Source of the DNA: Mycobacterium barrassiae
GTDB lineage: Bacteria; Actinomycetota; Actinomycetes; Mycobacteriales; Mycobacteriaceae
Assembly: GCF_025822765.1 (NCBI RefSeq)
Contig: NZ_JACKUK010000025.1
Coordinates: 125,084 to 189,083, forward strand
Direction: 5' to 3'
DNA: 64,000 nucleotides
The notes beneath the pieces were generated by a model. That model was not told where the DNA came from, made no database searches, and was given only the letters and a program-made list of their open reading frames with translations. Positions 1,148 to 27,032 of this stretch are shown in pieces (position 1 is the stretch's first letter; the number at the start of each line of letters is the position of its first letter). Made by a program: the position numbers and the translations under genes.

Positions 1148-1557
1148 GGCACGTTGGTGTCCAAGAGGGTCAGCGGAAGACCGAGCACGGACAGGTCGAT
1201 CTCTTCCAGGTGTGTGCCGTCGCCCGCCAGCTTCTGTCGGAATCGGATTGCTGCGCCGTACCTCTCGGCGACGGACTCCGCAGCCGAGGCCTCGGGGATC
1301 TGCAGCACGACGGTGTAGATCCCGTCACCCTTCTCGTCGAGAAACGTCTGCACATTAGCGGCGACGGCAACCGTCGATCCCGGAATCGGGCTGATCAACT
1401 CGACCCCTCGGTCCCAGTCCAAGCTCACGCGGACACCGAGCTCGGTCAGCTCCGCCGGCTGCAATGTGAAGCCGAGGTCGGTGAACATCCGCGCGACGGT
1501 CTCGTGCCGCTCAGGAGCAACGGCGAAAACAACGTGATGAAGCCGAGATTCGGTCAT
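1144..1557 (-). CDS. VOC/glyoxalase-superfamily protein
   Basis: 137-residue protein of the vicinal-oxygen-chelate fold. It starts MTESRLHHVVFAV, a typical first beta strand carrying a metal-ligand-like His, and it has a later acidic stretch (HLEEIDL). A longer in-frame opening exists, but the ATG at 1557 overlaps the stop of the upstream DapB-like gene (ATGA at 1554-1557), which fixes the start. The family includes isomerases, lyases and ring-cleavage enzymes, so the reaction is unknown. Its place between a DapB-like dehydrogenase and a P450 suggests it acts on an intermediate of the same pathway. Confidence 0.8.
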   Translation of the reverse strand: MTESRLHHVVFAVAPERHETVARMFTDLGFTLQPAELTELGVRVSLDWDRGVELISPIPGSTVAVAANVQTFLDEKGDGIYTVVLQIPEASAAESVAERYGAAIRFRQKLAGDGTHLEEIDLSVLGLPLTLLDTNVP

Positions 1558-2612
1558 TTCCGCACCAGACCGCGGGGCCGGACGAGGCCGAGGTCGAAAT
1601 GGGTGACCCAACCGGGCTGGGCGTCGCACACGTCGGGGATTGCGTTGATGGCCCCCATCGCGGTCCAGTCATACCCGGGATGGCGCATCGTTCCGTCGGG
1701 CCGGTCGACACCCTCGAGCGTGAGTTCGGTGGGAGGATCCCCTTCGATGACGATCCGGTACCGCGTCTTGCCCCAGTCCCACGACGGGTCGATCTTGTCG
1801 GGCTCGCTGGTCAGGTAGATGGCGTGGAAGACGATGAGGGGAGCGCCGTCGACCCATGCTGTCCATTCGTGATGCTGGGCTGCGACGGTTCCGCGCGGTA
1901 TCGCTCCCAGCTGGTGCGGAATGTCCTCGGTCGCGACGGCCGCCTTGACGTCGGCCGCCGTGACGTCATCAATGGTCACCCCGAGACCGTCGGCGATCAT
2001 ATACATCGACTGCGCGAAGAACGGAACACCAAGACCGAGAATTGTTGGCTCGCTGAGGAATTTGTCTTTGTCCTTGCCGAAGCCCATCCAGTCGATGTGG
2101 TCCAGCGGCGCGTCGGTGAGGACGTTCACGACCTCGTATACGACGATCTTGTCGATCCTGTTCATCACGCGCGCAAGGGTCATCGGCAGGATGTCGCCCG
2201 CGTAGCCCGGATGGATGCCTCCGCCGTGGAACGAGGTCCCACCGTCGGCGCAGGCGGCGCGGATCTGCTCACCGCCGTCGCGGAAATCCTCGGATGGATA
2301 GAAGAAGCCGCTCGTGGTGACGACGTTCTTACCCGAGCGCAGCAGTCGGCACACGGTATCGGTATCCATGATGACCGGCGTGTAGAAAACGCAGTCGGCG
2401 TCCATCGCGATCACCGCCTCGACGTCATCCGTTGCGAGGACCCCCGTCGGCGCGATGCCCGCGATCTCGCCGGCGTCCTTGCCGACCTTGTCCTTGTTGT
2501 GTACCAGAACGGCGACGAGGTCGAAGGTCGGGTTGTCGGCGAAGTGCCGTACGCCGACCTGACCGACGTCGCCCGTCATCCACTGAATGACTCGATACCT
2601 CTTCTCAGGCAT
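1554..2612 (-). CDS. DapB-like NAD(P)-dependent oxidoreductase
   Basis: 352-residue protein with an N-terminal Rossmann fold (YRVIQWMTGDVGQVGVRHF) of the family often annotated as dihydrodipicolinate reductase in mycobacteria. True DapB is about 245-270 residues and its signature is not seen here, so a lysine-pathway role is unlikely. The ATG at 2612 is preferred over a GTG at 2621 because AGAGG lies 8 nt upstream of it. It overlaps the 3' end of the next gene upstream. A close relative lies immediately upstream (2605-3654) and another at 11580, so this is a local paralogue family. It probably oxidises or reduces an alcohol/ketone intermediate made by the neighbouring P450s; this is inference. 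Confidence 0.85.
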   Translation of the reverse strand: MPEKRYRVIQWMTGDVGQVGVRHFADNPTFDLVAVLVHNKDKVGKDAGEIAGIAPTGVLATDDVEAVIAMDADCVFYTPVIMDTDTVCRLLRSGKNVVTTSGFFYPSEDFRDGGEQIRAACADGGTSFHGGGIHPGYAGDILPMTLARVMNRIDKIVVYEVVNVLTDAPLDHIDWMGFGKDKDKFLSEPTILGLGVPFFAQSMYMIADGLGVTIDDVTAADVKAAVATEDIPHQLGAIPRGTVAAQHHEWTAWVDGAPLIVFHAIYLTSEPDKIDPSWDWGKTRYRIVIEGDPPTELTLEGVDRPDGTMRHPGYDWTAMGAINAIPDVCDAQPGWVTHFDLGLVRPRGLVRK

Positions 2613-3654
2613 TGATGACACCTCTGGGTAGTAGCAGCGGCAGGTCGTTGTAGGTCGCGATGCCGGGAGGTGCGGCGACGACGGCGGGTATCGCGGTGAT
2701 CGCCGGAACGGCGGTGATGGTGAGGCCCAACAGGATGTAGTCCTCGATGGTTTCGCCGACGAAGTCGGGCGGCGGCTCGAAGCTCAGCGTGGTCTTGATC
2801 GTCGGACGGCCCTCGATCCTCACGTCGTATCCGAACCCCATGGACCACGTCGGCTCGAGCGTTTGCCCTTTCGTCCACACCCCGCGCACCTCGACGACCT
2901 CACGTTCGCCGAGGAAGCCCTTCCAGCGCACGTCGATCCCGGCCACGCAGCCCTTGGCGATGTGCCAACCGCCGGGTAGGTCGAGATCCTCGGTGGTCTG
3001 GGCATATTCGGCGTCGCAGCGTATCTCGTCCAGTTCGACGCCGAGGGCGTCGGCGAGCAGAAGCACAGCTTCCCGAAAGATCCCCGAACCCTTCTCGGTG
3101 ATGTCGTGCAGGCCCGGCTGGTCGATCGGATAGCCGAAACCCATGATCTTCTCGGTGTCGGGGGAGTTGTAGATGGTGGTGTCGAAGGACTCCACGATCG
3201 ATATCCGGTCGACTCGGTCCGAGATCCCCGCCGCGACGATCGCGAACAATTGCATGAAACCGGGGTTGAGCCCGCTGCCGAAGATCGTCGACCCGCCCTT
3301 CTGGCAGGCGGCGATGACGCGGCCCCGGCCCGCACCGAGTCGGTGCCCCGTGATGAACTCCGACGTGGTCACGACGTTGATACCCGCGCCCAGAATGCGC
3401 TCCAGCTCATCGACATTCGCGAACATCGGGTTGTAGACGACGCAGTCAGGTTCGAGTGCGAGCAGCGCGTCAACGTTGTCGGTGGCGGTCACCCCGAGCG
3501 GTTCGATACCGCAGAGCTCGCCGACGTCGCGCCCCACCTTGTCCCGTGACCAGGCGTAGCAGCCGACGAGTTCCAAGGTCGAGTTCGAGGCGATCGCATG
3601 GACCGACTTCTTGCCGACATTGCCCGTCGTCCACTGCACGACGCGATACGTCAT
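2605..3654 (-). CDS. DapB-like NAD(P)-dependent oxidoreductase
   Basis: 349 residues, same family as its downstream neighbour. The N-terminal dinucleotide-binding segment is [18 protein letters not shown], followed by a Cys/Asp-rich region (LEPDCVVYNP) and a C-terminus ending IPAVVAAPPGIATYNDLPL. That same C-terminal block reappears in the collapsed gene at 61113-61358. The start at 3654 overlaps the P450 stop (ATGA at 3651-3654); an upstream in-frame start would overlap the P450 by 19 nt and is not preferred. The reaction is unknown. Two adjacent homologues could form a heteromer or act on successive intermediates. Confidence 0.85.
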   Translation of the reverse strand: MTYRVVQWTTGNVGKKSVHAIASNSTLELVGCYAWSRDKVGRDVGELCGIEPLGVTATDNVDALLALEPDCVVYNPMFANVDELERILGAGINVVTTSEFITGHRLGAGRGRVIAACQKGGSTIFGSGLNPGFMQLFAIVAAGISDRVDRISIVESFDTTIYNSPDTEKIMGFGYPIDQPGLHDITEKGSGIFREAVLLLADALGVELDEIRCDAEYAQTTEDLDLPGGWHIAKGCVAGIDVRWKGFLGEREVVEVRGVWTKGQTLEPTWSMGFGYDVRIEGRPTIKTTLSFEPPPDFVGETIEDYILLGLTITAVPAITAIPAVVAAPPGIATYNDLPLLLPRGVINA

Positions 3655-4880
3655 CCGGCCGCTGCCCACGTCGAGCGCTCACCAGGGGTGAAGCCCACCG
3701 GGATGCGACGGTATCCGCGTGTGACGGAGTTTCCGTGGAAATCCGCTGTGCCGGCGAGTGTGTAGTCGGGCATCCGCGCCAAGACCTGTTCGAGGCCGAC
3801 TTGGAACTCCAGTCGAGCCAGGTTGGAGCCGAGGCAGCGATGGACGCCTGCGCCGAATCCGAGGTGCCGGTTCGCCTGACGGTCGAGGATGCACCGATCG
3901 GGTTCGGGGAACTCCGCGGCGTCGCGGTTGGCGGAGGCGTAGTTGACGATCACCGATTCACCCGGGCAGAAGGCATGTCCTGCGAGCTCGACGTCCTGCG
4001 CGACGGTGCGAGGTATGCCGTGGATCGATCCCCCGAAGCGGATGAACTCCTCAACCGCCTTGGGCACGATCTCCGGCTCTGCGATCAGCCGGTCACGCTC
4101 GTCGGGATGCGTTGCCAGGTAATGGAATGCGAACGACATCGCGCTTGCGGTCGTCTCCAGACCGGCCTGCACGAGCAGCATCGCGTTGCCGACGACATCC
4201 CCGAACTCCAGCTTCTCGCCGTCGATCTCGGCGTTGAGCAGGACATCGATCATGTCGTCCTGCGGCGGTTGGGTGGAGCGCGCCGACACCGCATCGTGGA
4301 TGTGTTGGTAAAGTCCGCCCCAGGCGGCCATCCGGGGGTCTTCGCTCGCGCCGTTCAACGCGGTGTCCGTCAACTCGATGCACAGGGGCACATCGTCGAT
4401 GGGCATGCCGAGCAGGTACTTGAAGAACACGATGCCCGGTTGCCGCCACGCGACCTGGGCGAGATCGCCGCTGCCTGTCTCGATGAACATGTCGATGAGT
4501 CGGTCGGTCTCCGTGCGGATCTGCGGCCGAAGGGCCTTCATCCGGGCAGGGGAGAAGTACGGGTTGAGGACCTTACGGAACTTCTGCTGCCTCGGCGGGT
4601 CGAGTGTGATCACCAGATCCCCAGCCAGTCGTTCCTTCGCGTCTGGGGTGGGGTTGGACGAGAAGTGCTCCCAGTCCTGCAGGATCTTGTAGCATTCCTC
4701 GTAGCGGTTCGCCACCCAAGCGCCACCGGGAGTGGCACTGAGGAACGGCGAATCGGTATGTGAGAACGACGTATTCCGCCGCATCACGTCATAGACGGCG
4801 TACAGAAAGTCGTTGTCGTTGAAGTCCTCGTGGCGAAGATCCAGGTTCGCCGCGTGTTCCTCCGGCGTTTTCATCGTCAC
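3651..4880 (-). CDS. Cytochrome P450
   Basis: 409 residues, full length for a soluble bacterial P450. I-helix AGLETT is at 239-244, the ExxR pair at E278/R281, and heme loop [10 protein letters not shown] carries Cys349. The GTG at 4880 overlaps the stop of the preceding gene (GTGA); an ATG two codons later (4874) is also possible. It is embedded in the same leftward operon as the AAA+/VWA genes. The substrate is not predictable, and no cognate ferredoxin lies next to it, so electrons must come from elsewhere. Confidence 0.95.
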
Positions 4881-5308
4881 GGAGATTGCGCTCCCGACTG
4901 CTGGGCCGCGGCCTCACGCGCCTCCCTCTCCTCGTGGATGCGCACCAGTTCGCGGAATCCGATCCGGTGGTACTTCGGCACCGGTTGAATGCCCCATTCA
5001 TCCTGGGCGGTGTCCTTGCCTTCGGCCCCCTCGGGCGGTCCGAGCGGCGGGTATGGCACCTTGCATTCCAGGGTGTCGTCGGAGTACCGGACCTTCAGTA
5101 GTTCACTGCAGATCTCGGTCAGGCTCAGCGTCGGATAGCCGTAGTACACCGCCATGAACGGCAGTGTGAAGGCCCCTTCGATGACGAGTGCGACCAGGCA
5201 GACCAGTACCGCTCGCTTGATCCACTTGTGCATGCGCGCGTAGTACGGCATCGTGCCAGGCGGCAGGTCCTCGGCCTTCGGGTCCGTGGACTGAGGTGTT
5301 GTCGTCAC
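4877..5308 (-). CDS. Single-span membrane protein, unknown family
   Basis: 143 residues. One hydrophobic helix at about residues 31-56 ([20 protein letters not shown]) follows a basic, Pro-rich N-terminus. The rest is soluble, with a Pro-rich linker, a conserved-looking [10 protein letters not shown] segment and an acidic C-terminus. It starts at GTG 5308 with AGGAG 7 nt upstream. It sits between the multi-span membrane protein and a P450, which suggests an accessory or tethering subunit of the membrane component. I do not recognise the family and no catalytic motif is visible. Confidence 0.75.
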
Positions 5309-5328: not shown

Positions 5329-6024
5329 TCAGTCGGTGAAGATTTCACGGTTGACGGTGTGTAGATACGGAATCGCCAGGAACGGCGTGATGTAGAAGAT
5401 GTCGTAGAGCCACCAGCCGATCACCGGGAACACCACACCGGCGTAGCGGACGTCGGCGTACATCGTCATGTTGAACACGTAGAGGCACCAGATGAGCACG
5501 CCCATCCAGCAGGTGACGATCATCCACTGATGGCCCCACCGTTTCATCTGCAGGAAGCCGATCGCCGCGGCGCAGCGCATCGCGAAGACCGTGAGGATCA
5601 TGCCGAACACCATCGACTTCTCGCCCGGCCCGGCGGCGCCTCCGACCCAGAACTCGTTGTAGTGCCAGAAGTATCCGGCGTCGAACATCGCGCCCCAGCC
5701 CACCATCAGCACGCGGTTGATCAGTGTGTGGTTGGCGACGAGGTCCAGTGCCCAGCCCAGGCTGTTCAGCATTCCGTCGATCAGGACGAGGTATCCGATC
5801 AGCGTGACGATCATGGGGCGCATCGACAGGCCGGCGCGGGCCGCCTGACGCTGGAGCCACACCCCGCGCAGGAAGATGGGCAGCCCGAAGATGCCGGGCG
5901 CCCACATGCCCATCAGCGCGGCGCCGACGATCATCCACTTGTCCGCCCTGCGCTGGGCCAGGCGCGACGCTTCGTCGTGGTCTTCGAGGCTGACGGCGCC
6001 GCCCGCCCTGACATCCAGACTCAC
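5329..6024 (-). CDS. Multi-span membrane protein, copy 1, unknown family
   Basis: 231 residues from a GTG at 6024 that overlaps the stop of the 42-residue gene (GTGA). About six hydrophobic segments (roughly 31-53, 71-92, 103-120, 137-158, 165-187, 195-220). Polar residues within or next to membrane spans are shared with the paralogue at 9296-10036: D94, H99, D115, H121, E124, H165, D191, D208, H222, in motifs such as [12 protein letters not shown] and [16 protein letters not shown]. Such His/Asp/Glu sets can bind metal, and the operon encodes an AAA+/VWA pair of a type that matures metalloenzymes. It does not resemble NorB, PmoA/PmoC or EXPERA proteins in any way I can support. The function is unknown; a membrane oxidoreductase is an inference. 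Confidence 0.8.
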
Positions 6025-6149
6025 AACTCCCACCACCCGCGGGCGAAGGACATGTACAACTGGATGCCGAACATGGCCAGCAGGTAGCCATAGATCACGA
6101 CCTGTAGGACGATGAGCGCCCGCTTGCGCTTGCGTTCCTTCTCGTCCAT
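6021..6149 (-). CDS. 42-residue membrane microprotein
   Basis: ATG at 6149, stop TGA at 6021-6023. The N-terminus is highly charged (MDEKERKRKR) and is followed by one hydrophobic helix (ALIVLQVVIYGYLLAMFGI) and an aromatic tail ending WWEL. A strong ribosome site, GAAGGAGT, lies 5 nt upstream. The stop overlaps the GTG start of the multi-span protein, so the two are translationally coupled. It is too short for most gene callers. The arrangement suggests a small structural or assembly subunit of the membrane protein. The paralogous membrane protein at 9296 has no equivalent small gene beside it. Confidence 0.7.
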   Translation of the reverse strand: MDEKERKRKRALIVLQVVIYGYLLAMFGIQLYMSFARGWWEL

Positions 6150-6164
6150 GTCTGACTCCTTCCC

Positions 6165-6965
6165 CTACGGTGCGGTGCTCGAGCTGTCGGCGTCGGCCAG
6201 GCTGGCCGCGGCGACTTCGCGTAAACCTTCTGTGATGGCGCCGTCGCTGGACAGCGGTGCGAGGATGCACGCCTCGGCGGCCTCGAATTCGGTTGCCCCT
6301 GCGGCGATCAGCTGCGCTGCGGTGACGAGGACACGGGTCGATGGCGGCTCGAAGTGGAAGGCCTCGTCGGCCGTTCTGATGGCGGTCGCGCATTGCACAA
6401 GCCGACGGGCAGTGTCCATGGCGATACCGGCCTCGGCGACGATGACCTCCGCCTCCTGCTCAGGTGGCAGGTAGCGCATCGGCAGCGTCACGAAGCGCTG
6501 GCGGAACGACGGTTTGAGCTCCTTCAACGAACTGCGGTACGCGGGGTTGTAGGAGCACACCAGCATGAAGGTCTCGGGCGCCTGGACGACCTCGCCCGCA
6601 CGGTCCAGATATAGGGCGCGGCGGTGATCGGTCAGCGAGTGCAGGATCGCCAGCGAATCGTGCCGCGCCTCAACGACCTCGTCGAGGTAGCAGATGGCTC
6701 CGGCCTTGACCGCTCTGGTGAGTGGACCGTCGGTCCACACCACGTCGCCACCGGTCACCATGAAGCGACCGACCAGATCGGAGCTGGTCAGGTCGTCGTG
6801 ACAGCTGATCGTCACCACGGGGCGTCGCAGAAGCAGGCCCATGTGCTCGACGAGCCGTGTCTTGCCGCAGCCCGTGGGGCCGGTGAGCATCACTGGGAGC
6901 TGTTGGCGATAAGCCTGTTCGAACATCTGGACTTCGTTGCCGTTCGAGTAATAGGTCTCGGTCAT
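6165..6965 (-). CDS. MoxR/NorQ/CbbQ-like AAA+ ATPase
   Basis: 266 residues. Walker A GPTGCGKT is at 29-36 and Walker B ICYLDE at 91-96, followed by a sensor-1-like region (CSYNPAY) and a C-terminal CbbQ-type segment. Members of this family work with a VWA partner as chaperones that insert or remodel cofactors in enzymes such as Rubisco, NO reductase and CO dehydrogenase. The ATG at 6965 overlaps the stop of the VWA gene (ATGA), which fixes the start against a much longer open frame and fits a stoichiometric pair. The likely clients are membrane proteins or other products of this operon, since no Rubisco, NorB or CO dehydrogenase is nearby. Confidence 0.9.
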   Translation of the reverse strand: MTETYYSNGNEVQMFEQAYRQQLPVMLTGPTGCGKTRLVEHMGLLLRRPVVTISCHDDLTSSDLVGRFMVTGGDVVWTDGPLTRAVKAGAICYLDEVVEARHDSLAILHSLTDHRRALYLDRAGEVVQAPETFMLVCSYNPAYRSSLKELKPSFRQRFVTLPMRYLPPEQEAEVIVAEAGIAMDTARRLVQCATAIRTADEAFHFEPPSTRVLVTAAQLIAAGATEFEAAEACILAPLSSDGAITEGLREVAAASLADADSSSTAP

Positions 6966-8494
6966 GCGGCCACCAACTCTCGATGCACGTGGGCGAGTAC
7001 CCGGGGGAGCTCCTCGATGCGCCGGATGCGTTGGGAGCGGCGAGGTCCGAACACTTCCGGCAGTGGGTCGACTCTGGTGGGTCCGACGCCGACGTAGTAC
7101 ATGCGCACGCCGGCGTCGTTGGCTTCTTCGACGGCGTGTGCGGCGTCCGCCCAGGCGTATCGCCCCTCGTAGCCTTCGTCGGAGATCAGGCCGTCGCCTA
7201 TCACGATGAGCAGACGCCGTTCCGACGGTTGGGCGAGCAGCCGACTCGTCAGGTGACGCAGCGGTGCGCCTAGCCTGGTGTATCCGCCTGCCGCCAGGCC
7301 GAGTTGGCCGGGAGGGACGAACCTGCGGTCTTCGAAGTCCTTGAGGCAGGTGACCTCGACGCGATGACGGGTGTTGCCGGTGAACACGAAGATACCGTGG
7401 CGTTCCCGCGCGAGGGTCATGGCCTGCGAAAGCGCGTCCGCACAGGCCAATTCGAGCTTGAAGATCGTGCCGCCGTGCACACCCAGTGATGAGCTGCCGT
7501 CGAGCAGTAGTGCGGTGGTGACGTCGCGACTGGTGGGCAGCAGATCGCGGAAGATGCGCGGCTCGACGGCCTCGCCGGTGGTCAGGTCGATGTAGTGGCT
7601 GACGTACTGCTCGACGTCGAGATCGGAGCCGTCCACCAGCCGGCTCTTCATCGCCCGGTGCGTGTGCTCGGAGAACCATCTGCGCAGATCGGTCGAACCC
7701 GGCATCGGGTCGCTGTGCCCGCTGGTATGGGTGCGTTCGAGGACCGCGACGTGGTCCGGCATGAAGCTCTCTGTCCACGCGTTCCACTCCGGATACGGGA
7801 TTCCGGGGCGGTGTTCGGGGGTGAGGTCGAGGTCGTTGTCCTGGGGCCGGCTCGGCGGCGGCAGATTGGTCGCGCGCACGCCGCCCTCTCCGCCGACGGG
7901 CACCGAGTACGGGCGGGGCAGCCGCTTCTGCGTTGAGGTCCAAGGCATTCGGCCGAAGGTGCGACGCAGTTTGTCGGTCAGCCCCTGTGGTTCGGTGTAT
8001 GCGCGCGGCAGTGTGCCCAACAGGGGATCCACGATCAGCGGTTGCGATGTGCGCGCCAATGCGACTGCGCGGTTGAGCATGTCGTTCGCGTCCGTGTCGG
8101 CAGACGCGATGTCCAGGTCGGGGAGAAGCGGCCGAATCTCGGGCAGAAGTCCAGGCCAGTTGTCGGCGATCCAACCCAATGCGACGCTCGCCTCGACGAG
8201 AGCGAGGGCGGTCAGTTCACGATGGGACAGCTCGTTGAGCCGGTAGTCGACGACCCGGTCTTTTGACGGTGAACATTGAAGGGCGACACCGCAGGTCAGC
8301 GTGCGTCGTGTCCAGTCCCTGACGGGCGGCGGATAGGGGACGTGCACGAAGTCGAGTGTTGAGCTCAATCCGAAATCGCGTCGGGGACCGCTGATCAGGC
8401 GCACGCCTTCTCGTCGCTGCCCACTCAGCGCGACGGCGGTGACGGCACAACTGCGCTCGACAGCGAGCGCGTGTGCATCGGAAAGCTCGGACAT
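6962..8494 (-). CDS. CoxE/NorD-like VWA-domain protein
   Basis: 510 residues. The C-terminal von Willebrand factor A domain (about 320-510) has an intact MIDAS start DGSSS near residue 331. The N-terminal half is unassigned. It is the expected partner of the downstream AAA+ ATPase (cf. NorD-NorQ, CbbO-CbbQ, CoxE-CoxD), in which the MIDAS domain recognises the client. It starts at ATG 8494, 9 nt after the stop of the 34-residue microprotein, and ends overlapping the ATPase start. Role: client recognition in metalloprotein maturation, by family analogy. Confidence 0.88.
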   Translation of the reverse strand: MSELSDAHALAVERSCAVTAVALSGQRREGVRLISGPRRDFGLSSTLDFVHVPYPPPVRDWTRRTLTCGVALQCSPSKDRVVDYRLNELSHRELTALALVEASVALGWIADNWPGLLPEIRPLLPDLDIASADTDANDMLNRAVALARTSQPLIVDPLLGTLPRAYTEPQGLTDKLRRTFGRMPWTSTQKRLPRPYSVPVGGEGGVRATNLPPPSRPQDNDLDLTPEHRPGIPYPEWNAWTESFMPDHVAVLERTHTSGHSDPMPGSTDLRRWFSEHTHRAMKSRLVDGSDLDVEQYVSHYIDLTTGEAVEPRIFRDLLPTSRDVTTALLLDGSSSLGVHGGTIFKLELACADALSQAMTLARERHGIFVFTGNTRHRVEVTCLKDFEDRRFVPPGQLGLAAGGYTRLGAPLRHLTSRLLAQPSERRLLIVIGDGLISDEGYEGRYAWADAAHAVEEANDAGVRMYYVGVGPTRVDPLPEVFGPRRSQRIRRIEELPRVLAHVHRELVAA

Positions 8495-8503
8495 ATCGCG
8501 TCT

Positions 8504-8608
8504 CTAGAACGTCCCGATGTTGGAGAACATCCAGTACCAGAACCAGATGATCAAACCGGTGCCGCCCCATGCCGCGACGTACCGGAGGATCTCCCATATC
8601 CAATCCAC
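8504..8608 (-). CDS. 34-residue membrane microprotein
   Basis: GTG at 8608 to TAG at 8504-8506. It is preceded by a near-perfect Shine-Dalgarno GAGGAGGT about 5 nt upstream, which strongly supports translation. The peptide is very aromatic (eight Trp/Tyr in the first 27 residues) with one hydrophobic helix, e.g. GGTGLIIWFWYWMF. It lies 16 nt after the TetR stop and 9 nt before the VWA start, filling what would otherwise be an unexplained 130-nt gap. It is probably a membrane-inserted helper or subunit; no family is recognised. Confidence 0.65.
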   Translation of the reverse strand: MDWIWEILRYVAAWGGTGLIIWFWYWMFSNIGTF

Positions 8609-8624: not shown

Positions 8625-9239
8625 CTACCGGATCTCAAGACCGCGGACGGCGGTGGCGACCAACTCGGCCAGCATCGTGTCGCGGGTGTCGGAATTGCTC
8701 ATCGTGGTCAGCACGCCATAGACGCCGAGGAGGAAGAACACGGCGCTGTAGAACGCGTCCACCTCCGGGTGGATCTCGCCGTCACTGCGGGCGCGTTCGA
8801 TCTCACGCACCAGCAGCACGATCATCGGATGGTCGGTCCACTCGTCCCTGTTGGGCCGCGTCGGCGAGAAGTGCAGTGCAAGCAACTCTTTGAACAGCAG
8901 CGGACCCAGCCGTTGCTCCAGGCCGGTCACCAGGTGCACCGCCGCGTTCAGCGTCGTCACCAAGTCATGTGCGTCGTCGTGTTTGTCGTCGAGGAAGCGC
9001 GCGAAGTCGGCCGCCATCCGTGCTTCTTCGCGACTCTCCAACTCGAGCAGGACGTGCTCCTTGCTGGGGAAGTGGAAGAAGAACGTGCCATGTGCGACGC
9101 CTGCCGCCGCGGCGATCGAATTCACGTCGGCACCGGACATGCCGGCGAGCTTGAACTCGGCGATCGCCGCGCCGAGTATGCGTTCTCGCGTCTGCAGCCG
9201 TCGGACCTCGCGCGCCGACTGCTTGACCTGAGGCGTCAT
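8625..9239 (-). CDS. TetR-family regulator, copy 1
   Basis: 204 residues. The N-terminal helix-turn-helix is at about 18-60 (RERILGAAIAEF, GVAHGTFFFHFPSKEHVL), followed by a helical ligand-binding domain. It is closely similar to the regulator at 10077-10676 (shared GVAHGTFFFHFP, KEHVLLELE and LEQRLGP/LERRLGP-type blocks), so the two are paralogues. It is the first gene of the long leftward operon, and its promoter carries the shared operator (feature 9249-9294). The -10 element ends 9 nt before the ATG, so the mRNA is nearly leaderless. It probably represses its own operon until a ligand is bound. Confidence 0.92.
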   Translation of the reverse strand: MTPQVKQSAREVRRLQTRERILGAAIAEFKLAGMSGADVNSIAAAAGVAHGTFFFHFPSKEHVLLELESREEARMAADFARFLDDKHDDAHDLVTTLNAAVHLVTGLEQRLGPLLFKELLALHFSPTRPNRDEWTDHPMIVLLVREIERARSDGEIHPEVDAFYSAVFFLLGVYGVLTTMSNSDTRDTMLAELVATAVRGLEIR

Positions 9240-9295: not shown

Positions 9296-10036
9296 TCAGT
9301 CGGAGAAGATCTCGCGGTTGACGGAGTGCAGATACGGGATGGCCAGGAAGGGCGTGATGTAGAAGATGTCGTAGAGCCACCACCCGACGACCGGCAGGAT
9401 CACGCCGGCGTAGCGGACGTCGGCGTACATCGTCATGTTGAACACGTAGAGACACCAGATGAGCACACCCATCCAGCAGGTGACGATCATCCACTGGTGG
9501 CCCCAGCGCTTCATCTGCAGGAAGCCGATTCCTGCGGCGATGCGCATGGTGAAGACGGTGAGAATCATGCCGACTTCCATGGCTTTCTCGCCGGGTCCCG
9601 CAGCACCGCCGATCCACAGCTCGTTGTAGTGCCAGAAGTATCCGGCGTCGAACATTGCACCCCAGCCGTTCAACAGGATTCGAGCCAGGATGGTGTGGCT
9701 GGCCACCAAATCGAGTGCCCAGCCCACGGTGTTGATCGCGGCATCGATGATGACGAGATAGCCCAGCAGCGTGACCAGCATCGGCCGAACCGTCAGCCCC
9801 TCGCGCTGCGCCTTGCGCAGTAGCCAGACGCCACGGAGGAAGAGCGGAAGCCCGAAGATGCCGAGTGCCGCAGTGCCGATCAGCAAGCTGCCGGAGATGA
9901 GCCATTTGTCCGCGTGCCGCTGGGCCGCCTGCGACGCGGCCATGTGCTCATCCAAACCGCTGGCGGATGGCTTCGGGCCCTTGGGGCGCGCCGAGGCATC
10001 ACGATTCCGGCCCAGGTTGAGCGTGGGCAGATTCAT
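9296..10036 (-). CDS. Multi-span membrane protein, copy 2, unknown family
   Basis: 246 residues. It is closely similar to the protein at 5329-6024 from the ADKW motif to the end, including [28 protein letters not shown] and [11 protein letters not shown], with a longer hydrophilic N-terminus. The same His/Asp/Glu set is conserved between the two copies. The ATG at 10036 is used here. If the operator-associated TTGACT at 10055-10050 is the true -35, translation may start later (ATG 9943), although similarity to copy 1 begins slightly upstream of that codon. It sits between two TetR paralogues and appears to be separately controlled from copy 1. Confidence 0.8.
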   Translation of the reverse strand: MNLPTLNLGRNRDASARPKGPKPSASGLDEHMAASQAAQRHADKWLISGSLLIGTAALGIFGLPLFLRGVWLLRKAQREGLTVRPMLVTLLGYLVIIDAAINTVGWALDLVASHTILARILLNGWGAMFDAGYFWHYNELWIGGAAGPGEKAMEVGMILTVFTMRIAAGIGFLQMKRWGHQWMIVTCWMGVLIWCLYVFNMTMYADVRYAGVILPVVGWWLYDIFYITPFLAIPYLHSVNREIFSD

Positions 10037-10076: not shown

Positions 10077-10676
10077 CTACTTTGCTTCGATGCTGCGCAA
10101 CGTTCGGGTGACGTAGTCCTCGATCATCGCGGCCTGGCCGGGCCAGTCGTGGGTCGTCGTCAGCAGCGCATATAGGCCGAGCAGGAAGAACACGGCGCTG
10201 TTCATCGGGTTCACCTCGGCGTCGACGTCGCCGCGTTCCCGGGCGCGCTCTATCTCCTTCGCGAGGGTGACGATGACAGGGTGTTCGTAGCTCTCGTCCC
10301 GCGGCCGGGTCTGCGAGAAGTGCAACGCCAGAAAGTCCTTGAAGAGCACCGGGCCCAGACGGCGTTCGAGACCCATCACCAGGCGGACCGCCTCGTTGAG
10401 CGTCGACCTGAGATCGCGCGGCGTCGCCACATAGCGACCTAGTTGTTTGGCGATGTCCTCTTCTGTTCGCTGCTCGAGTTCGAGCAGCACATGCTCCTTG
10501 GTCGGAAAGTGAAAGAAGAACGTGCCGTGGGCAACTCCCGCAGCTGCCACGATGGCGCCGACGTCGGCCGCGGCGATACCGGCACGCTTGAACTCGGCGA
10601 CCGCGGCACCCATGAGACGTTCCCGTGTCTGTAAGCGCTTGGTTTCTCGCGCAGACGGCTTGTCTACCACTGCCAT
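10077..10676 (-). CDS. TetR-family regulator, copy 2
   Basis: 199 residues from ATG 10676. An in-frame ATG at 10697 is possible, but TACAGT at 10688-10683 would serve as a -10 for a leaderless message from 10676. The helix-turn-helix block (AAGVAHGTFFFHFPTKEHVL) is almost identical to that of the regulator at 8625-9239. The two may therefore recognise the same TTGACTNNRGTCAG sites and cross-regulate. The gene is divergent from the SDR-DapB pair, with one operator in the shared intergenic region. Confidence 0.92.
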   Translation of the reverse strand: MAVVDKPSARETKRLQTRERLMGAAVAEFKRAGIAAADVGAIVAAAGVAHGTFFFHFPTKEHVLLELEQRTEEDIAKQLGRYVATPRDLRSTLNEAVRLVMGLERRLGPVLFKDFLALHFSQTRPRDESYEHPVIVTLAKEIERARERGDVDAEVNPMNSAVFFLLGLYALLTTTHDWPGQAAMIEDYVTRTLRSIEAK

Positions 10677-10722
10677 ACGGCAACTGTACCGGTCCATCGG
10701 CTGGTAAGCCGCGACTATGTTA

Positions 10723-11579: not shown

Positions 11580-12653
11580 ATGCGAAGAGTGGTCCAGTTT
11601 TCCACCGGCAATGTCGGACAGCATTCGCTGAAGGCCATCATCGGGCGCCCCGACCTGGAACTTGTGGGTGTGCATGCAGCGAGCCCGAACAAGATCGGGC
11701 GCGACGCCGCAGAACTCTGCGGGTTGAGCGAGCCGACCGGCATCATCGCGACCGACGACATCGACGCGCTGATCGCGCTGAAGCCGGACTGCGTCGTGTA
11801 CACCGCGCTGGGCGAGACGCGGCCGATGGAGGCGCTCGAGCAGATGACGAAGCTCTTGGCCGCAGGCATCAACGTCGTCGGTACCTCGATGGTATGGCTG
11901 GTGACACCGCATCAGGTTGATGATTGGCTGCGGGGTCCGCTCGAGGAGGCGTGCGCAGCGGGCGGCTCCTCGCTGTACGTCAACGGCATCGATCCCGGGT
12001 ATTCGGGCGACACGGCGGTGCTCGCCGCGTTGAGCTTGGTCACCAGGGCCGAGTCGGTGACCGTGCAGGAGGTTTTCGACTACGGCAACTACGATGACTA
12101 CGAATACACCGGTACTGCAATGGGATTCGGCACCACACCGGACGACGGCCCAGCGCTCGCGTTCCAGCCGGGCGTTGTGGCGGCCATGTTCGGTGGCCTG
12201 GTGCGTAACCTGGCCCGGCACCTCGGAATCGACCTCGCCGAGGTCCGCGACCGCTACGAGCCCTGGTACACCGACAAGCGCATCGAATGCAAGATGATGA
12301 CCGTCGAGCCGGGACAGCTGGCGGCGGTACGCTTCGCGGCCGAAGGTGTGCGCGACGGTGAGGTCGTCATCACCGTCGAACACACCACCCGACTCACACC
12401 TGCGGCGGCGCCGGATTGGGAGTATCCGACCGAGGGACATTCCGGCGTGCACAAGGTGATCGTGGAAGGCGAGCCGCGCGTCGAGGTGAGCACCCACCTG
12501 TCGCACCCGACCCTCGACGTCACCGAGGCGGGGTGTGTGTCGACGGCTGCTCGGGTCGTCAACGTCATCGACTGGGTGTGCCGCGCACCGGCGGGACTCA
12601 TTGCGCTCGAGGATATTCCGCCGGCCGAAATGGTGCGCGGGCTTATGTGGTGA
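11580..12653 (+). CDS. DapB-like NAD(P)-dependent oxidoreductase
   Basis: 357 residues, same family as the genes at 1554 and 2605. The N-terminus is MRRVVQFSTGNVGQHSLKAI, with an LKPDCVVYTAL block, and the C-terminus has AARVVNVIDWVCRAPAGL. It begins 12 nt after the SDR stop, so the two are cotranscribed. This third member lies in the divergent arm of the same putative regulon, which suggests a repeated chemical step or different substrate specificities. The reaction is unknown. Confidence 0.87.
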   Translation: MRRVVQFSTGNVGQHSLKAIIGRPDLELVGVHAASPNKIGRDAAELCGLSEPTGIIATDDIDALIALKPDCVVYTALGETRPMEALEQMTKLLAAGINVVGTSMVWLVTPHQVDDWLRGPLEEACAAGGSSLYVNGIDPGYSGDTAVLAALSLVTRAESVTVQEVFDYGNYDDYEYTGTAMGFGTTPDDGPALAFQPGVVAAMFGGLVRNLARHLGIDLAEVRDRYEPWYTDKRIECKMMTVEPGQLAAVRFAAEGVRDGEVVITVEHTTRLTPAAAPDWEYPTEGHSGVHKVIVEGEPRVEVSTHLSHPTLDVTEAGCVSTAARVVNVIDWVCRAPAGLIALEDIPPAEMVRGLMW

Positions 12654-18919: not shown

Positions 18920-20527
18920 TCATGTTCGTCGCAACACCAACACACTGCCGTCGCCGTCGGCCGACACATATAGGGTGCCGTCGGGACCTTCGGTGATACC
19001 GGCGAACGGACCCTGAGGGCCGGAGAACGGTGGCATTCCCTTGAGCGGCTTGGGATTGACGCCCGGCGGCGGTCCGACGGGCAGGCCGGAGGCGATGGTG
19101 CGCCGCTCGCCGCTGGTCAAGTCGACCGCGATGACCTCCTTCGCGCCCGCGTCCACGATGTACAGCTGGTCCCCGGAGACATGGATACCCTGCGGTCGCT
19201 GCAGCCCGTCGACGACGGTCTCGGTGGAACCGGCCAGCCGCACGACGCGTCCGGCACCCGATTCCGCCACCAGCGGAACCCCGTCGGCGCCGAACGCCAC
19301 GCCGACCGGATCCTGCAGCCCGGAGGCCAGGAGCTCGACATTGCCCGATCGCAGCGCGTGCACGCTGCCGGTGCCGAGTTCGGCGAACACGATGGTGTTC
19401 CCGGGCCCGATGGCGACGCCGTAGAGTTGGTCGAAACCATCAGCGAGATAGTCGGTTTCGCCATCGCCGGGACGGTACCGGGCGATCTGGCCACCCGATG
19501 TCGCCACCACGAACGCCCCGGGGCCCTCCGGGGCCAGCCCACGCAGGAAGCCTGGATAGCCGGGCGTGAACAGCATGCCCACGGTTTCCAGCGCACCGTC
19601 GGCCCCGACGACATAGAAGTAGGTGCCGTCGGCGACGTACAGTCGGCCGTCGTCGCCGATGACGAGGTCCAGCGGCCAGTTCAACCCGCCCGGCAGCGCG
19701 GTGCGCGTCTCGCCGCCCGCCAGGATCTCGGTGATTTCTCCGGTGAAGTTGGAGACAAAAAGGCGGTCGCCGACGAAGGTGAGATTGTCCAGCCCCGGAT
19801 TGAGTTGCGCCAGTAGGGTTTTCTCACCGCTGCGCGGATCGATGCGCAGCACCTGCCCGTTGGCCACCTGTGTCGACACCAGATAGCCCTGCGGATCGAA
19901 CTTGACCGCATCCGGCACGCCGAGATCGCCGGCCACCCGCTGCGGCTCACCCCCTTGCGGGTCGATGCGCCAAATCTCATTGGCCGTCATCAGCGGGTAG
20001 TACAGCATCCCGTCCGGCCCGACCTCCATCGCGTTCGGCGACGGCAGGTTCTCCAGCAGAATTCGCGAAGCTCCGGTGGCCCGATCGAGTTCCACCAGCC
20101 GACCGCCGTCGCGGCACTCGTTGATGAACAGCCGGTCCTGATGGACAGTGATGCCGTTCGCGCAGGGGAGGTCGTCGCGCAGCACCCGCGCCGCGCCGCC
20201 GGCGTCACGTACGCTCACCCGGCCGTCCATGACCTCGGTCGCGTACAGGTTGCCGGCACCGTCGAAGGCGACGTCGTCGGGCGCGATGATCTCGCTGCCC
20301 TTCGGGCTGACGGCCTCGACTCCGCCGTCGGCCAGATCGACGGCGCTGATCTGACTGCCTGTCACCTGAGCGACGTAGATGCGTCCGTCGGGCCCGGTCC
20401 GCAACCCGTTCGCGCCGAACAAGCGACTCGGCGTCGTGAGCCTTTCGAGCTGCCAACCGTCGGCGGTCGTGGGGTTGGTCGCGATGTACCGGGAGGGCGG
20501 GAGCGACGCCGTCGCTGGAGCACTCAT
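18920..20527 (-). CDS. SMP-30/NHL-type beta-propeller, lactonase-like
   Basis: 535 residues with many NHL/SMP-30 repeats of the type GPDGxLYVAD, GDDGRLYVADG and GPDGTLYVSADG. The length suggests two propellers in tandem. No signal peptide is visible, so it is probably cytoplasmic. SMP-30 relatives are Ca-dependent lactonases; a lactonase would fit downstream of the Baeyer-Villiger-type enzyme encoded divergently. It starts at ATG 20527, and a 31-nt gap separates it from the GntR gene. Confidence 0.8.
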   Translation of the reverse strand: MSAPATASLPPSRYIATNPTTADGWQLERLTTPSRLFGANGLRTGPDGRIYVAQVTGSQISAVDLADGGVEAVSPKGSEIIAPDDVAFDGAGNLYATEVMDGRVSVRDAGGAARVLRDDLPCANGITVHQDRLFINECRDGGRLVELDRATGASRILLENLPSPNAMEVGPDGMLYYPLMTANEIWRIDPQGGEPQRVAGDLGVPDAVKFDPQGYLVSTQVANGQVLRIDPRSGEKTLLAQLNPGLDNLTFVGDRLFVSNFTGEITEILAGGETRTALPGGLNWPLDLVIGDDGRLYVADGTYFYVVGADGALETVGMLFTPGYPGFLRGLAPEGPGAFVVATSGGQIARYRPGDGETDYLADGFDQLYGVAIGPGNTIVFAELGTGSVHALRSGNVELLASGLQDPVGVAFGADGVPLVAESGAGRVVRLAGSTETVVDGLQRPQGIHVSGDQLYIVDAGAKEVIAVDLTSGERRTIASGLPVGPPPGVNPKPLKGMPPFSGPQGPFAGITEGPDGTLYVSADGDGSVLVLRRT

Positions 20528-20552
20528 GACCCCGGACGGTACCAAGCGCTTC

Positions 20553-20665: not shown

Positions 20666-21511
20666 ATGAGCGACCTTCTTCGGCTGGACGGCCGCATCGT
20701 CGTGGTGTCGGGCGCGGGCGGCGGCGGGATCGGCACGACCATCACGCGGATGGCCGCCGAGTCAGGCGCCACCGTCGTCGCGGTCAGCCGGTCAAAGGAG
20801 AACCTCGACGAACACGTCGCGCCGCTGGCCAAGGACGGCTTGTCGGTGGTGCCGGTGTCCGCGGACGCCTCCACCGACGAGGGCATCGCCACCGTCATGG
20901 ACCACGTGCGGCGCACCGACGGCGTGCTGTACGGATTGGTGAACATCGCGGGCGGGGCGGCGCCGTCCACATGGATGCCCGCGACGCGGGTGACGCGCGA
21001 GGACTGGCGAGCGCTGTTCGCGGCGAACCTCGAAACCGCGTTCTTCATGAGCCAAGCGGTGGCGGCTGAGATTCGCGAAAAGGGCAATCCCGGATCGATC
21101 GTCTCAGTGTCGTCGATCAGCGGGATGAACACCGCTCCGTTCCACATCGCCTACGGGACCGCGAAGGCGGCGATCGTGGCGATGACCCGGACAATGGCCG
21201 CCGAACTCGCGCTGAACAACATTCGAGTCAACGCCGTCGCGCCCGGCGTGACGGCGACGGCGGCGTCACGCACCTATGTCGATGACGACCCCGAACGCGA
21301 CCGCACCGCCATCGCCATGGGCCGGCGCGGCACACCGGAGGAACAGGCGAGCGCGATCCTGTTCCTGCTGTCGGACATGTCGAGCTACATCACTGGTCAG
21401 ACCCTGCTGGTCGACGGCGGTCTCAACCTGAAATGGACGCACCTCGGCGCCGACAACACCTCGCTCTTCCTCGCCGACGAGTCCTTCCGAACTGAAATTA
21501 GGAGGATCTAG
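20666..21511 (+). CDS. SDR-family oxidoreductase
   Basis: 281 residues. Cofactor motif SGAGGGGIG near residue 16, N-I-A-G, and catalytic S...Y-x3-K ([21 protein letters not shown]). It is the first gene of the rightward catabolic run, and its last base overlaps the next start. It carries an extended C-terminus beyond the usual VDGG end (about 35 residues). It is likely an alcohol dehydrogenase for the product of the oxygenases that follow. Confidence 0.92.
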   Translation: MSDLLRLDGRIVVVSGAGGGGIGTTITRMAAESGATVVAVSRSKENLDEHVAPLAKDGLSVVPVSADASTDEGIATVMDHVRRTDGVLYGLVNIAGGAAPSTWMPATRVTREDWRALFAANLETAFFMSQAVAAEIREKGNPGSIVSVSSISGMNTAPFHIAYGTAKAAIVAMTRTMAAELALNNIRVNAVAPGVTATAASRTYVDDDPERDRTAIAMGRRGTPEEQASAILFLLSDMSSYITGQTLLVDGGLNLKWTHLGADNTSLFLADESFRTEIRRI

Positions 21512-22923
21512 TGACGCACACCGAATCCGACCTAGATGCCGCCATCGAGGTCGACGGCGATCCGGACGATTCGACCGGGCAGGTCGCCGAAGATCTCTCG
21601 TCGCCGATGACCATCGGTGTCGACGCCTACATCTCCGAGGAGTACGCCCGCAACGAGCGGGATCGGTTGTGGCGCAAGGTCTGGCAGCAGGTCGGCCGCG
21701 TCGAAGAGCTCCCTGAGGTGGGCAGCTATCTGACCTACGACATCCTCGACGACTCGATCATCGTGGTGCGGACGGGACCGAACGAGTTTGCGGCCCACCA
21801 CAACGTGTGCATGCATCGCGGCCGCAAACTGGTCGACACACCCGAGGGCGCCAAGAACGCGATCGGCCGTGCTCGTAAGTCCTTCGTCTGCGGGTTCCAC
21901 GGCTGGACATACGGTTTGGACGGTGCCTGCACCCACATCCGCGAACAGGACGACTGGAAGGGTGCGCTGACACCCGACAACACCCACCTTGTTCCGGTCC
22001 AGGTCGACACCTGGGGTGGGTGGTTGTTCATCAACATGGATCCCTCCGCCGAATCGCTGGCCGACTACCTGTTTCCGGCATCGAAGATCCTGGAGCCATT
22101 CGGACTGGAGAACATGCGCTACAAATGGCGCAAATGGCTTTATTTCGACTGCAATTGGAAGGTCGCGATGGAGGCCTTCAACGAGACCTACCACGTGTTC
22201 ACCACGCATCCGGAATTCAACAAGTTCGGTGAGTTCAAGGGTTGGGCCAAGGCGCAGGGCAAGCACAGCAACATCGGCTACGACGCTCCGAAGGGTTTGG
22301 ACGAGACCAAGTCCAAGATTCGCCTCGGCACCGGTGACCCGCGCATCTCGACGGCCGAGATGCAGGTCTACACAATGGAAGAGACCAACGCGACCACCAC
22401 GGAGACGTTGGTCAACGCCGCCAAGCGGCTGGTCGACGAACTGCCCGAAGGCACGCCGGCGGATCAGGTGCTGCAGCACTGGCTGGCGTCGGCGCGTCGC
22501 GACGACGAAGCGCGCGGGGTGATCTGGCCGACGATCCCACCCGACATCCTCGGCCAGAGCGGTACCGCCTGGCAGATCTTCCCCAACTTCCAAGTGGGCC
22601 AGGGCCTGACGAGCGCGCTGTGCTACTCCGCACGCCCCGATCCGAGCTATGACCCCAACAAGTGCATCTTCGAGGTCGCGGTATTCGAGCTCTATCCCAA
22701 AGGTCAAGAGCCGCAGACGGAATGGCAGTACACCCCGAAGGACTCCCCGAACTGGCTCTCGGTGCTGCCGCAGGACTTCTCGAACATGGCGGCGGTGCAG
22801 CAGGGCATGAAGTCGGCCGGCTTCCCCGGTACCAAGCCCAACCCGTATCGCGAGCGCAGCACGGTGAACCTGCACTACCAACTGTCCAAGTACATGGGCA
22901 CCGGCGAGCCCCAAGATTTGTGA
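21511..22923 (+). CDS. Rieske non-heme iron oxygenase, alpha subunit
   Basis: 470 residues from GTG 21511, with AGGAGG 5 nt upstream. The Rieske cluster ligands are C100-x-H102 and C127-x2-H130; the 24-residue spacer is longer than the usual 16-17. The mononuclear iron site is NETYHVFTTH within DCNWKVAMEAFNETYHVF. No beta subunit, ferredoxin or reductase gene is adjacent. It probably hydroxylates a ring or alkyl position of the pathway substrate. Confidence 0.94.
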   Translation: MTHTESDLDAAIEVDGDPDDSTGQVAEDLSSPMTIGVDAYISEEYARNERDRLWRKVWQQVGRVEELPEVGSYLTYDILDDSIIVVRTGPNEFAAHHNVCMHRGRKLVDTPEGAKNAIGRARKSFVCGFHGWTYGLDGACTHIREQDDWKGALTPDNTHLVPVQVDTWGGWLFINMDPSAESLADYLFPASKILEPFGLENMRYKWRKWLYFDCNWKVAMEAFNETYHVFTTHPEFNKFGEFKGWAKAQGKHSNIGYDAPKGLDETKSKIRLGTGDPRISTAEMQVYTMEETNATTTETLVNAAKRLVDELPEGTPADQVLQHWLASARRDDEARGVIWPTIPPDILGQSGTAWQIFPNFQVGQGLTSALCYSARPDPSYDPNKCIFEVAVFELYPKGQEPQTEWQYTPKDSPNWLSVLPQDFSNMAAVQQGMKSAGFPGTKPNPYRERSTVNLHYQLSKYMGTGEPQDL

Positions 22924-22970
22924 TTTCGGCGTGCTTAGTCACGCTCAGCGAGACGCAACACGCCGAAATC
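22922..22970. repeat. Long-arm hairpin, class with 25-27 nt loop
   Basis: Perfect 12-nt arms GATTTCGGCGTG and CACGCCGAAATC around a 25-nt loop, filling the gap between the Rieske and monooxygenase genes. It starts inside the Rieske stop codon. The same architecture with different arm sequences recurs at 24838-24887 and 47306-47358. Within an operon it may stabilise or attenuate the transcript. Confidence 0.6.
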
Positions 22971-22987
22971 GCCAGTAAAGGAGACAC

Positions 22988-24829
22988 ATGACGACCTGTG
23001 GACCGACGGACGTACCCACCGATATCGATATCGACGCGTTGCGGGAGAAGTACGCCGCCGAGCGGGCCAAGCGTCTGCGACCTGAAGGCGCATCGCAGTA
23101 TCTGGAACTCAAGGACGAGTTCGCGGAGTTCGCCGAAGTCGACCCCCACACACCGGTGACACCTCGCACGCCGATCAACGAAGACGTCGAGGTCGCGGTG
23201 CTCGGTGGGGGCATCGCGGGGCTGCTCGCAGGCGCATACCTGAAGAAGGCAGGCGTCGACGACGTGCACGTCATCGAGATGGGCGGCGACTTCGGCGGCG
23301 TGTGGTACTGGAATCGCTTCCCGGGCATCCAGTGTGACAATGATGCGTACTGCTACATCCCGATGCTCGAAGAGCTCGACTTCATGCCGTCGAAGAAGTT
23401 CGCCGACGGCGCCGAGATCCTCGAGCACTGCAGGCGAATGGGCAAGCACTTCGGTCTGTATGACGGGGCCATCTTCTCCACCCAGGTGCGAACGGTGTGC
23501 TGGGACGACGAGATCGCTCGCTGGCACCTGAGCACCAACCGCGGCGACGACATCCGTGCTCGCTTCGTCGTGATGACGCAGGGCTCCTACAACCGTCCGA
23601 AACTGCCAGGCATCCCTGGCATCAAGGACTTCAAGGGCCATATGTTCCACTCCGCCCGTTGGGATTACGACTACACGGGCGGCGACGCATCGGGTGGACT
23701 GCACAAGCTGCACGACAAGCGGGTCGCACTCGTCGGTACGGGAGCCACGGGTGTGCAGCTCGTCCCACATCTCGGCCGAGATTCCCAGCACCTCTATGTG
23801 TTCCAGCGGACACCGTCGTCGGTGGACATCCGCGCCAACGAGCCGACCGATCCGCAGTGGGCGGCGTCGCTGAAGCCCGGTTGGCAGGAGGAGCGCAAAC
23901 TCAACTTCCATCGCTGGTCACCGTTCGGCGACGGGGTGATCTTCGATGCGGAGGATCAGGTATGCGACTTCTGGACCGAACTCGGCCGCAACCTGACCGC
24001 ACGCGTTGCTGCAGCCGAGGATCCGGCGTCGCTGGGCGTCGAGCAGATCATGGCGATGCGCGAAGAAGAGGACTTCAAGATCATGGAGCGGCTGCGGCGC
24101 CGCGTGGAAGCGATCGTCGACGATCCACAGACCGCCGAGGCGCTCAAGCCGTACTACCAGTTCCTGTGTAAACGTCCGTGCAGCAGCGACGAATACCTGG
24201 CGACCTTCAACCGTCCGAACGTCACGCTGGTCGACGTCGCGGAGTCCAAGGGCATCGACAGGCTCACAGAGAACGGGATCGTCGCCAACGGCGTCGAATA
24301 CGAGGTCGACTGCGTCATCTTCGCGAGTGGTTTCGAGATCTCCACCGAGATCAGTCGACGGTACGCGATCGACACCATCGAGGGTCGCGACGGGTTGTTG
24401 CTGTTCGACCACTGGCGCGACGGTTTCAAGACGCTGCACGGGATCACGAGCCACGGCTTCCCGAACCAGTTCCACACCGGGTTCATTCAGGGCGGCGTGT
24501 CGGCCAATACGACGGCGATGTTCGAGCAGCAGGCCCAGCACATCGCCTACATCATCGCCGAGGCGGTGCAACGGAACGCGACGATCGTCGAGCCGAGCCT
24601 CGAGGCACAAGAAGCCTGGGGCGCCCACATCAAGGAGATCGCGGTCGACACGTCGGCGTTCGATCTCGCCTGTACGCCTGGCTATTACAACAACGAGGGC
24701 CGCGGATTCGATCAGGGCCACCGCTCGTTCCTCGGCGACTACTACATGGCCGGCTTCTACGCGTTCGACGACCTCCTCAAGGCGTGGCGCGAGAAGGGTG
24801 ACCTGGAGGGTCTGGAGTTGCGCTCATGA
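22988..24829 (+). CDS. FAD monooxygenase, Baeyer-Villiger type
   Basis: 613 residues with ribosome site AAGGAG. The FAD motif is VLGGGIAGLLAG (about 72-83), the NADP motif VGTGATG, and the Baeyer-Villiger fingerprint FKGHMFHSARWD lies between them. The N-terminal extension of about 65 residues before the FAD motif is typical of steroid/cycloketone monooxygenases. It would insert oxygen next to a ring ketone to give a lactone, consistent with the lactonase-like gene divergently encoded at 18920. Confidence 0.93.
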   Translation: MTTCGPTDVPTDIDIDALREKYAAERAKRLRPEGASQYLELKDEFAEFAEVDPHTPVTPRTPINEDVEVAVLGGGIAGLLAGAYLKKAGVDDVHVIEMGGDFGGVWYWNRFPGIQCDNDAYCYIPMLEELDFMPSKKFADGAEILEHCRRMGKHFGLYDGAIFSTQVRTVCWDDEIARWHLSTNRGDDIRARFVVMTQGSYNRPKLPGIPGIKDFKGHMFHSARWDYDYTGGDASGGLHKLHDKRVALVGTGATGVQLVPHLGRDSQHLYVFQRTPSSVDIRANEPTDPQWAASLKPGWQEERKLNFHRWSPFGDGVIFDAEDQVCDFWTELGRNLTARVAAAEDPASLGVEQIMAMREEEDFKIMERLRRRVEAIVDDPQTAEALKPYYQFLCKRPCSSDEYLATFNRPNVTLVDVAESKGIDRLTENGIVANGVEYEVDCVIFASGFEISTEISRRYAIDTIEGRDGLLLFDHWRDGFKTLHGITSHGFPNQFHTGFIQGGVSANTTAMFEQQAQHIAYIIAEAVQRNATIVEPSLEAQEAWGAHIKEIAVDTSAFDLACTPGYYNNEGRGFDQGHRSFLGDYYMAGFYAFDDLLKAWREKGDLEGLELRS

Positions 24830-24837
24830 CCGCCGGG

Positions 24838-27029: not shown

Positions 27030-27032
27030 GCC

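Follow-up and report, generated by a model that had tools for sequence, protein, structure and literature searches.

Chaperone pairs of a MoxR AAA+ ATPase and a VWA protein have been described for several enzymes, among them NorQ/NorD for cytochrome c nitric oxide reductase and likewise CbbQ/CbbO for Rubisco, and CoxD/CoxE and MSMEG_0748/0751 for CO dehydrogenase. In nitric oxide reductase, NorQD acts from the cytoplasmic side. NorQD acts on a membrane target by remodelling it (PMC13036017), and FeB insertion into nitric oxide reductase requires both NorQ and NorD (PMC9976466, PMC13036017). CbbQ/CbbO is described as remodelling, not metal-inserting, and MSMEG_0748 is part of another pair, that of the CO dehydrogenase cluster (PMC12657314). 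Here we analyse a NorQ/NorD locus in a 64,000-nucleotide stretch of Mycobacterium barrassiae (contig NZ_JACKUK010000025.1, positions 125,084 to 189,083; the whole stretch is called the window), in which the pair lies among genes for small and multi-span membrane proteins. We estimate at roughly 55% the probability that this locus encodes an undescribed multi-subunit integral-membrane complex that is matured by a NorQD pair of its own and is probably an enzyme acting on a hydrophobic substrate. A machine of known kind would then probably have a new kind of target, an unnamed membrane family.

The core genes all lie on the minus strand and encode, in the order of transcription, the six-span protein six2, a paralogue of six1 (9296..10036), mp34, a 34-residue hydrophobic membrane protein with C-terminal GTF (8504..8608), the NorD-type VWA protein (6962..8494), the NorQ-type AAA+ ATPase (6165..6965), mp42, a 42-residue single-span protein (6021..6149), six1, a 231-residue six-span membrane protein with a GTG start (5329..6024), and m143, a single-span protein whose C-terminal domain holds a conserved Cys pair (4877..5308). 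An earlier description made from the letters alone, hereafter the sequence-only reading, had singled out the pair, the two microproteins and six1 and had overlooked six2 and m143; its observation is real and larger than it said, and its interpretation is partly supported. The overlap of the NorD and NorQ genes by ATGA, which it had reported, was found again by direct reading, as were GTGA overlaps of mp42 with six1 and of m143 with the downstream P450 gene.

It had also called the ATPase NorQ/CbbQ-like, with Walker A at residues 29-36. The motif GPTGCGKT does occupy these residues, Walker B (YLDE) stands at 93-96, the protein matches the Pfam families AAA_5 (E 7e-36) and CbbQ_C (E 4.8e-22), and its nearest solved structure is Protein NorQ (9qh4, E 1.6e-77). 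By these matches the ATPase can be assigned to the NorQ/CbbQ group of MoxR AAA+ ATPases, closest to solved NorQ. Its partner likewise carries the metal ion-dependent adhesion site (MIDAS) motif DGSSS that had been noticed, at residues 332-336; residues 212-510 match solved NorD 9qhd (residues 329-646) at E 8.1e-31, and the VWA match itself lies under the Pfam cut-off (E 0.00065, 20.4 vs 23.8 bits). It can thus be classed as a VWA protein with a DxSxS MIDAS, and its likeness to NorD does not extend to the N-terminal region, the first 211 residues having no match to solved NorD. As for the two microproteins, substitutions relative to their counterparts in a set of 80 loci fall mostly at codon position 3 (799/1131 for mp34, 1139/1939 for mp42), so that both look like real genes.

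A contig search gave 267 confirmed relatives of six1, and the closest 80 were kept as loci. Six1, NorQ, mp42 and m143 were present in 80/80, NorD and mp34 in 79/80, and the core order six2-mp34-NorD-NorQ-mp42-six1-m143 was intact in 79/80; the sole exception, L081, has a contig end inside NorD. This core-order check is the safer count for six2, whose identity-based presence is inflated by cross-matching with six1. Mean identity to the window proteins ranged from 78% (NorD) to 91% (mp34), and the Cys pair of the m143 C-terminal domain was kept in 79/79 sequences. At the scale of the genus, the six-span family occurs in 63/118 sampled genomes, and a NorQ orthologue (at least 73% identity; the copy in G635 is truncated) in 61/118, all among the 63, with the caveat that absence here means absence among the matches listed and that a short orthologue fragment could hide in a genome without six-span genes. 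Within the genus this NorQ orthologue is thus tied to the six-span family, a six-span gene lying within 1.5 kb of it in 61/61 genomes; because of linkage and kinship, the co-occurrence is worth far fewer than 118 independent tests. Two genomes have a six-span gene and no NorQ orthologue: in G612, which is 84% complete, the gene is a fragment, and in G666 it is a lone copy of divergent sequence.

The association also extends to distant members. In L128 and L129 the set six-NorD-NorQ is kept at 35-57% identity, with the pair after the six-span gene, and L130, L131 and L132 each have a single six alongside NorQD and the full trio of small proteins. Given these single-six loci, the six1/six2 duplication looks younger. 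Proteins resembling mp34, mp42, six and m143 stand together in L133, L088 and L125-L128; in L088 and L125-L129 the six-span gene comes after genes for mp34-like and m143-like small proteins, and in L088 and L125-L128 also after one for an mp42-like protein, whereas m143 follows six in the window locus. Outside the genus the family is rare: it was found in 18/296 genomes of the class sample (12 of the 18 from the genus) and in 6/198 of the phylum sample (4 of the 6 from the genus), in 3/5 genomes in the order of G012, and in 1/149 in the class of G407, that one being G407 itself.

The N-terminal region of NorD separates this locus from the AveC-linked NorQD loci tested. Other mycobacterial NorQ genes, 45-55% identical, often adjoin AveC_like membrane proteins (PF17198; six of these were scanned, with E from 2.7e-43 to 1.1e-104). 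Residues 1-210 of the window NorD find a match in 11/11 of the tested NorD loci that are linked to a six-span gene, L128 (E 2e-23) and L129 (E 1e-15) among them; of the seven AveC-linked NorD loci tested, none gave a better value than E 0.3, although their C-terminal parts match. In both the NorQ and the NorD tree, the AveC-linked sequences form a fully supported group separate from the six-linked sequences of mycobacteria, and the NorD tree places L128 and L129 on the six-linked side; these trees are midpoint-rooted, comprise few sequences, use AveC-linked NorDs trimmed to the aligned part, and were lightly used.

At E 0.01, neither Pfam nor NCBIfam offered a family for six1, six2 or m143, in agreement with the earlier statement that the six-span protein has no recognised family. 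PHROGs, the one collection against which mp34 and mp42 were compared, returned a single match for six1 (E 0.45) and nothing for mp34, mp42 and m143. A longer six1 frame exists upstream of the GTG start, and relatives align from about that start. Hydropathy gives five clear spans in six1, whereas in two AlphaFold2 models there are six long helices accompanied by shorter ones. The paralogues six2 and six1 are 77% identical overall, 56% up to residue 107 and 89% from residue 108. In these C halves, synonymous codons agree more within than between loci (0.762 vs 0.698, 76 loci), a possible sign of gene conversion.

In alignment A3 (18 six-span rows, including six distant ones with 31-39% identity), the residues without variation include D83, N87, W91, D115, E135 and R193; D94, N123 and K136 are kept in 17/18 rows and H99 in 16/18. 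The conserved His/Asp/Glu set put forward by the sequence-only reading thus holds only partly: D83, D115 and E135 are invariant and D94 and H99 nearly so, but H121, E124, H165 and H222 of six1 are not conserved in the distant rows. Judged by spacing, D83, N87, W91 and D94 may share one face of helix 3, and a positive-inside reading would put the 94-134 loop on the outer side of the membrane and the two termini on the inner side. An outer location of the m143 C-terminal domain would fit its Cys pair.

From gene content, order, linkage, homology and conservation we infer that these products form one complex, probably an enzyme, with the topology given above and acted on by NorQD. The six-span core (the six1/six2 pair in the main mycobacterial locus) would be joined by the single-span proteins mp34, mp42 and m143. 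The NorQ AAA+ ring and the NorD VWA protein would act at the cytoplasmic face, where the family-specific N-terminal region of NorD might recognise the complex, and ATP-driven remodelling would complete or activate it, much as nitric oxide reductase is served by its NorQD. The working site would comprise D83, N87, D94, H99, D115, N123, E135 and R193, which the positive-inside reading puts at or near the outer face, and the complex would most probably act on a hydrophobic substrate alongside varying P450, short-chain dehydrogenase/reductase (SDR) and DapB-like enzymes. A bolder version is tentative, with odds clearly below even: a new class of multi-subunit membrane metalloenzyme with an outward active site and a dedicated NorQD loader, one of several NorQD-membrane-protein pairings, AveC-like ones included, that have spread in mycobacteria.

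Several observations weigh against such a complex with its own NorQD pair. Some concern copies of the family outside a main locus, of which we counted 17 by hand (the fragmentary copies of G609 apart); 12 were fetched and a thirteenth is L133. In 12/12 of the extra or lone copies fetched, mp34, mp42, six and m143 form a group, in this order except in L224 and L225 (mp42, a fused mp34-m143, then six); in L226, NorD and NorQ sit between mp34 and mp42. The other 11 have no NorQ or NorD in about 10.5 kb (about 5 kb per side), and the pair is also absent nearby in L088, L125, L126, L127 and L133. The mp34-mp42-six-m143 set therefore also travels without NorQ/NorD, and the pair is not needed beside every copy. 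The sequence-only reading had held that wide occurrence without the pair would speak against it, and this is in part what the 11 copies show, though for 10 of them the main NorQD locus is present elsewhere in the genome. The remaining one is the lone copy of G666, whose genome has only a 53% NorQ paralogue. Furthermore, the NorQ tree leaves L128 and L129 unplaced between the six-linked and AveC-linked groups, the stretch of L129 that was read showed no mp42-like protein, and the equivalence of the distant small proteins is based on order and on short alignments of segments chosen by eye. Both six-span AlphaFold models are weak as well (pLDDT 67 and 66). A fold search with them against the PDB gave no match at E <= 0.001, the top rows being noise, and since the models are weak this says little; human EBP, at rank 26 with E 3.9, was not counted as evidence. 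A profile search of the PDB with A3 gave nothing relevant.

The complex could be, as a special case, a membrane metalloenzyme, for instance a monooxygenase whose non-haem iron or copper NorQD would load; we consider this possible but rather doubtful. The copper membrane monooxygenase (pMMO/AMO) idea was not retained, because the Pfam families that we take to be those of its subunits matched none of the 49 and 18 members scanned at E up to 10, with HMMER filters dropping many weak matches. The conserved D83, N87, D94, H99, D115 and E135 could form a metal site, but H99 alone among the histidines is near-conserved across distant members. The requirement of NorQ and NorD for FeB insertion (PMC9976466, PMC13036017) favours metal loading, yet such pairs do not always insert metal, as CbbQ/CbbO indicates (PMC12657314). 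It is unlikely, in our view, that the six-span protein is instead a divergent non-metal isomerase, cyclase or dehydratase of EXPERA-like or AveC-like type, merely remodelled by NorQD. The EXPERA model (PF05241) does hit two distant members over one and the same part of the model, positions 24-111 (L129, E 0.0015; L125, E 0.21), but the best score, out of dozens of members scanned, is 19.3 against a cut-off of 25.7 bits. Relative to the EBP sterol isomerase, the catalytic positions do not coincide exactly: E135 and residue 208 of the six-span protein lie about one helical turn off EBP E122 and N193, as mapped by inspection (PMC4263179). The AveC side of this idea draws on the frequent AveC_like neighbours of NorQ paralogues and on the resemblance, by eye, of D83-x3-N87 to the QDPxxN of AveC, a protein described as a spirocyclase and dehydratase (PMC4581413). 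Profile-profile comparison (hhalign, small alignments) of the six-span family with EXPERA-like and AveC-like alignments was not significant. EXPERA membership, with its scores under the gathering threshold, was not adopted, nor was AveC membership, PF17198 having no match among the six-span members scanned.

Somewhat less probable still is a transporter, or a complex for electron or lipid transfer, that NorQD would assemble. Small single-span subunits and a conserved polar face that may point outward would suit it, and the neighbours in L125-L127 include genes that look ABC-type permease-like by their translations, but no transporter family or fold was matched, the fold search having used weak models, and the adjacent accessory genes of the window are oxidoreductases. 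Very improbable, finally, is that the true NorQD target is an adjacent P450 or DapB enzyme with the six-span protein as a mere neighbour. The P450 gene (3651..4880, minus strand) overlaps m143, and it is followed on the same strand by two DapB-like dehydrogenase genes (2605..3669 and 1554..2621). The sequence-only reading had made two P450s and the DapB-like dehydrogenases working partners of the complex, but this partnership is not fixed: orthologues occur in 40/80 loci for the P450 and in 33/80 and 41/80 for the two DapB-like enzymes, against 80/80 for six1, NorQ, mp42 and m143. With orthologues in only about half of the loci, these genes are accessory and not part of the core. We keep the membrane complex matured by its own NorQD pair as the preferred interpretation.

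Two regulator genes complete the locus on the minus strand. TetR2 (10077..10697) lies upstream of six2 and has an orthologue in 78/80 loci at 55% identity, and TetR1 (8625..9239), between six2 and mp34, is frequent and not universal (73/80 at 55% identity); the two may cross-match in these counts. The transcription order is thus TetR2, six2, TetR1, mp34, NorD, NorQ, mp42, six1, m143, P450 and the two DapB-like dehydrogenases. A second P450 gene, at 2-1147, is cut by the window edge and retains its haem motif. Elsewhere in the window, a third DapB-like gene (2,4-diaminopentanoate dehydrogenase type) lies on the opposite strand at 11580-12653, a protein over the ScyD/ScyE family cut-off adjoins a GntR regulator at 18920-20545, and the stretch 20666-33884 looks catabolic, with a Rieske oxygenase, a CoA-transferase, an acyl-CoA dehydrogenase, a thiamine pyrophosphate (TPP) enzyme and a PtlE-like monooxygenase that is close to PtlE (E 2e-202) yet under the cut-off of that model.

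Related neighbourhoods gave further observations. L225 and L088 (a M. branderi plasmid) are probably one locus. In L126 (9663-10532) and L127 (8171-9007), where NorQ and NorD are absent, the gene right after the six-span one encodes a short AAA ATPase that is FtsH-like; that of L126 has AAA and AAA_lid_3 and no recognised protease domain, and its L127 counterpart was assigned by likeness of the translation alone. AveC-like-paired NorQ/NorD paralogues were seen in L134, L135, L181, L182, L183, L189 and L190, some with a Rieske oxygenase nearby. L144, L148 and L149 resemble the EXPERA/EBP superfamily, L144 over the Pfam cut-off and the other two under it, and an EXPERA-like relative is carried by 28/78 genus genomes at E 1e-6. 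A relative of L148 lies near the pair in L182 (A4 match, E 8.4e-71), where the Pfam EXPERA model does not match it, and another stands with an AveC-like protein in L188, where no NorQ or NorD was seen.

In open-access PMC literature (titles and beginnings of abstracts, most subscription papers being outside this scope) we found no paper on the locus. NorQD-type machines have few established targets, and the locus supplies a membrane target without a family name, together with very small proteins that are easily missed in gene annotation, in a family present in about half of the genus genomes sampled. We know of no multi-span membrane protein as the target of the Rubisco and CO dehydrogenase pairs, and no genes for these two enzymes were among the window neighbours scanned. 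The window pair is like NorQ/NorD of the Paracoccus cytochrome c nitric oxide reductase (E 1.6e-77 for NorQ, E 8e-31 for the C-terminal 300 residues of NorD). Both loci also combine a membrane target with small membrane proteins (norE and norF in the nitric oxide reductase operon; PMC13036017), whereas the targets belong to different families; no Pfam match to norB or norC was found among the 9 and 10 neighbour proteins scanned, which are part of the window genes. The AveC-like loci resemble the window locus in another way, a multi-span membrane protein standing beside a NorQD pair, and differ from it in their NorD N-termini, which are unrelated by search. This arrangement recurs in mycobacteria, where NorQ paralogues often adjoin AveC-like genes: among 88 paralogue places listed, an AveC_like gene lies within 5 kb in at least 48 (about 0.3 expected at random) and within 12 kb in at least 58, with none among the matches listed in 30. 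Such pairings, next to the one described here, suggest that NorQD-type machines may serve membrane proteins more generally.

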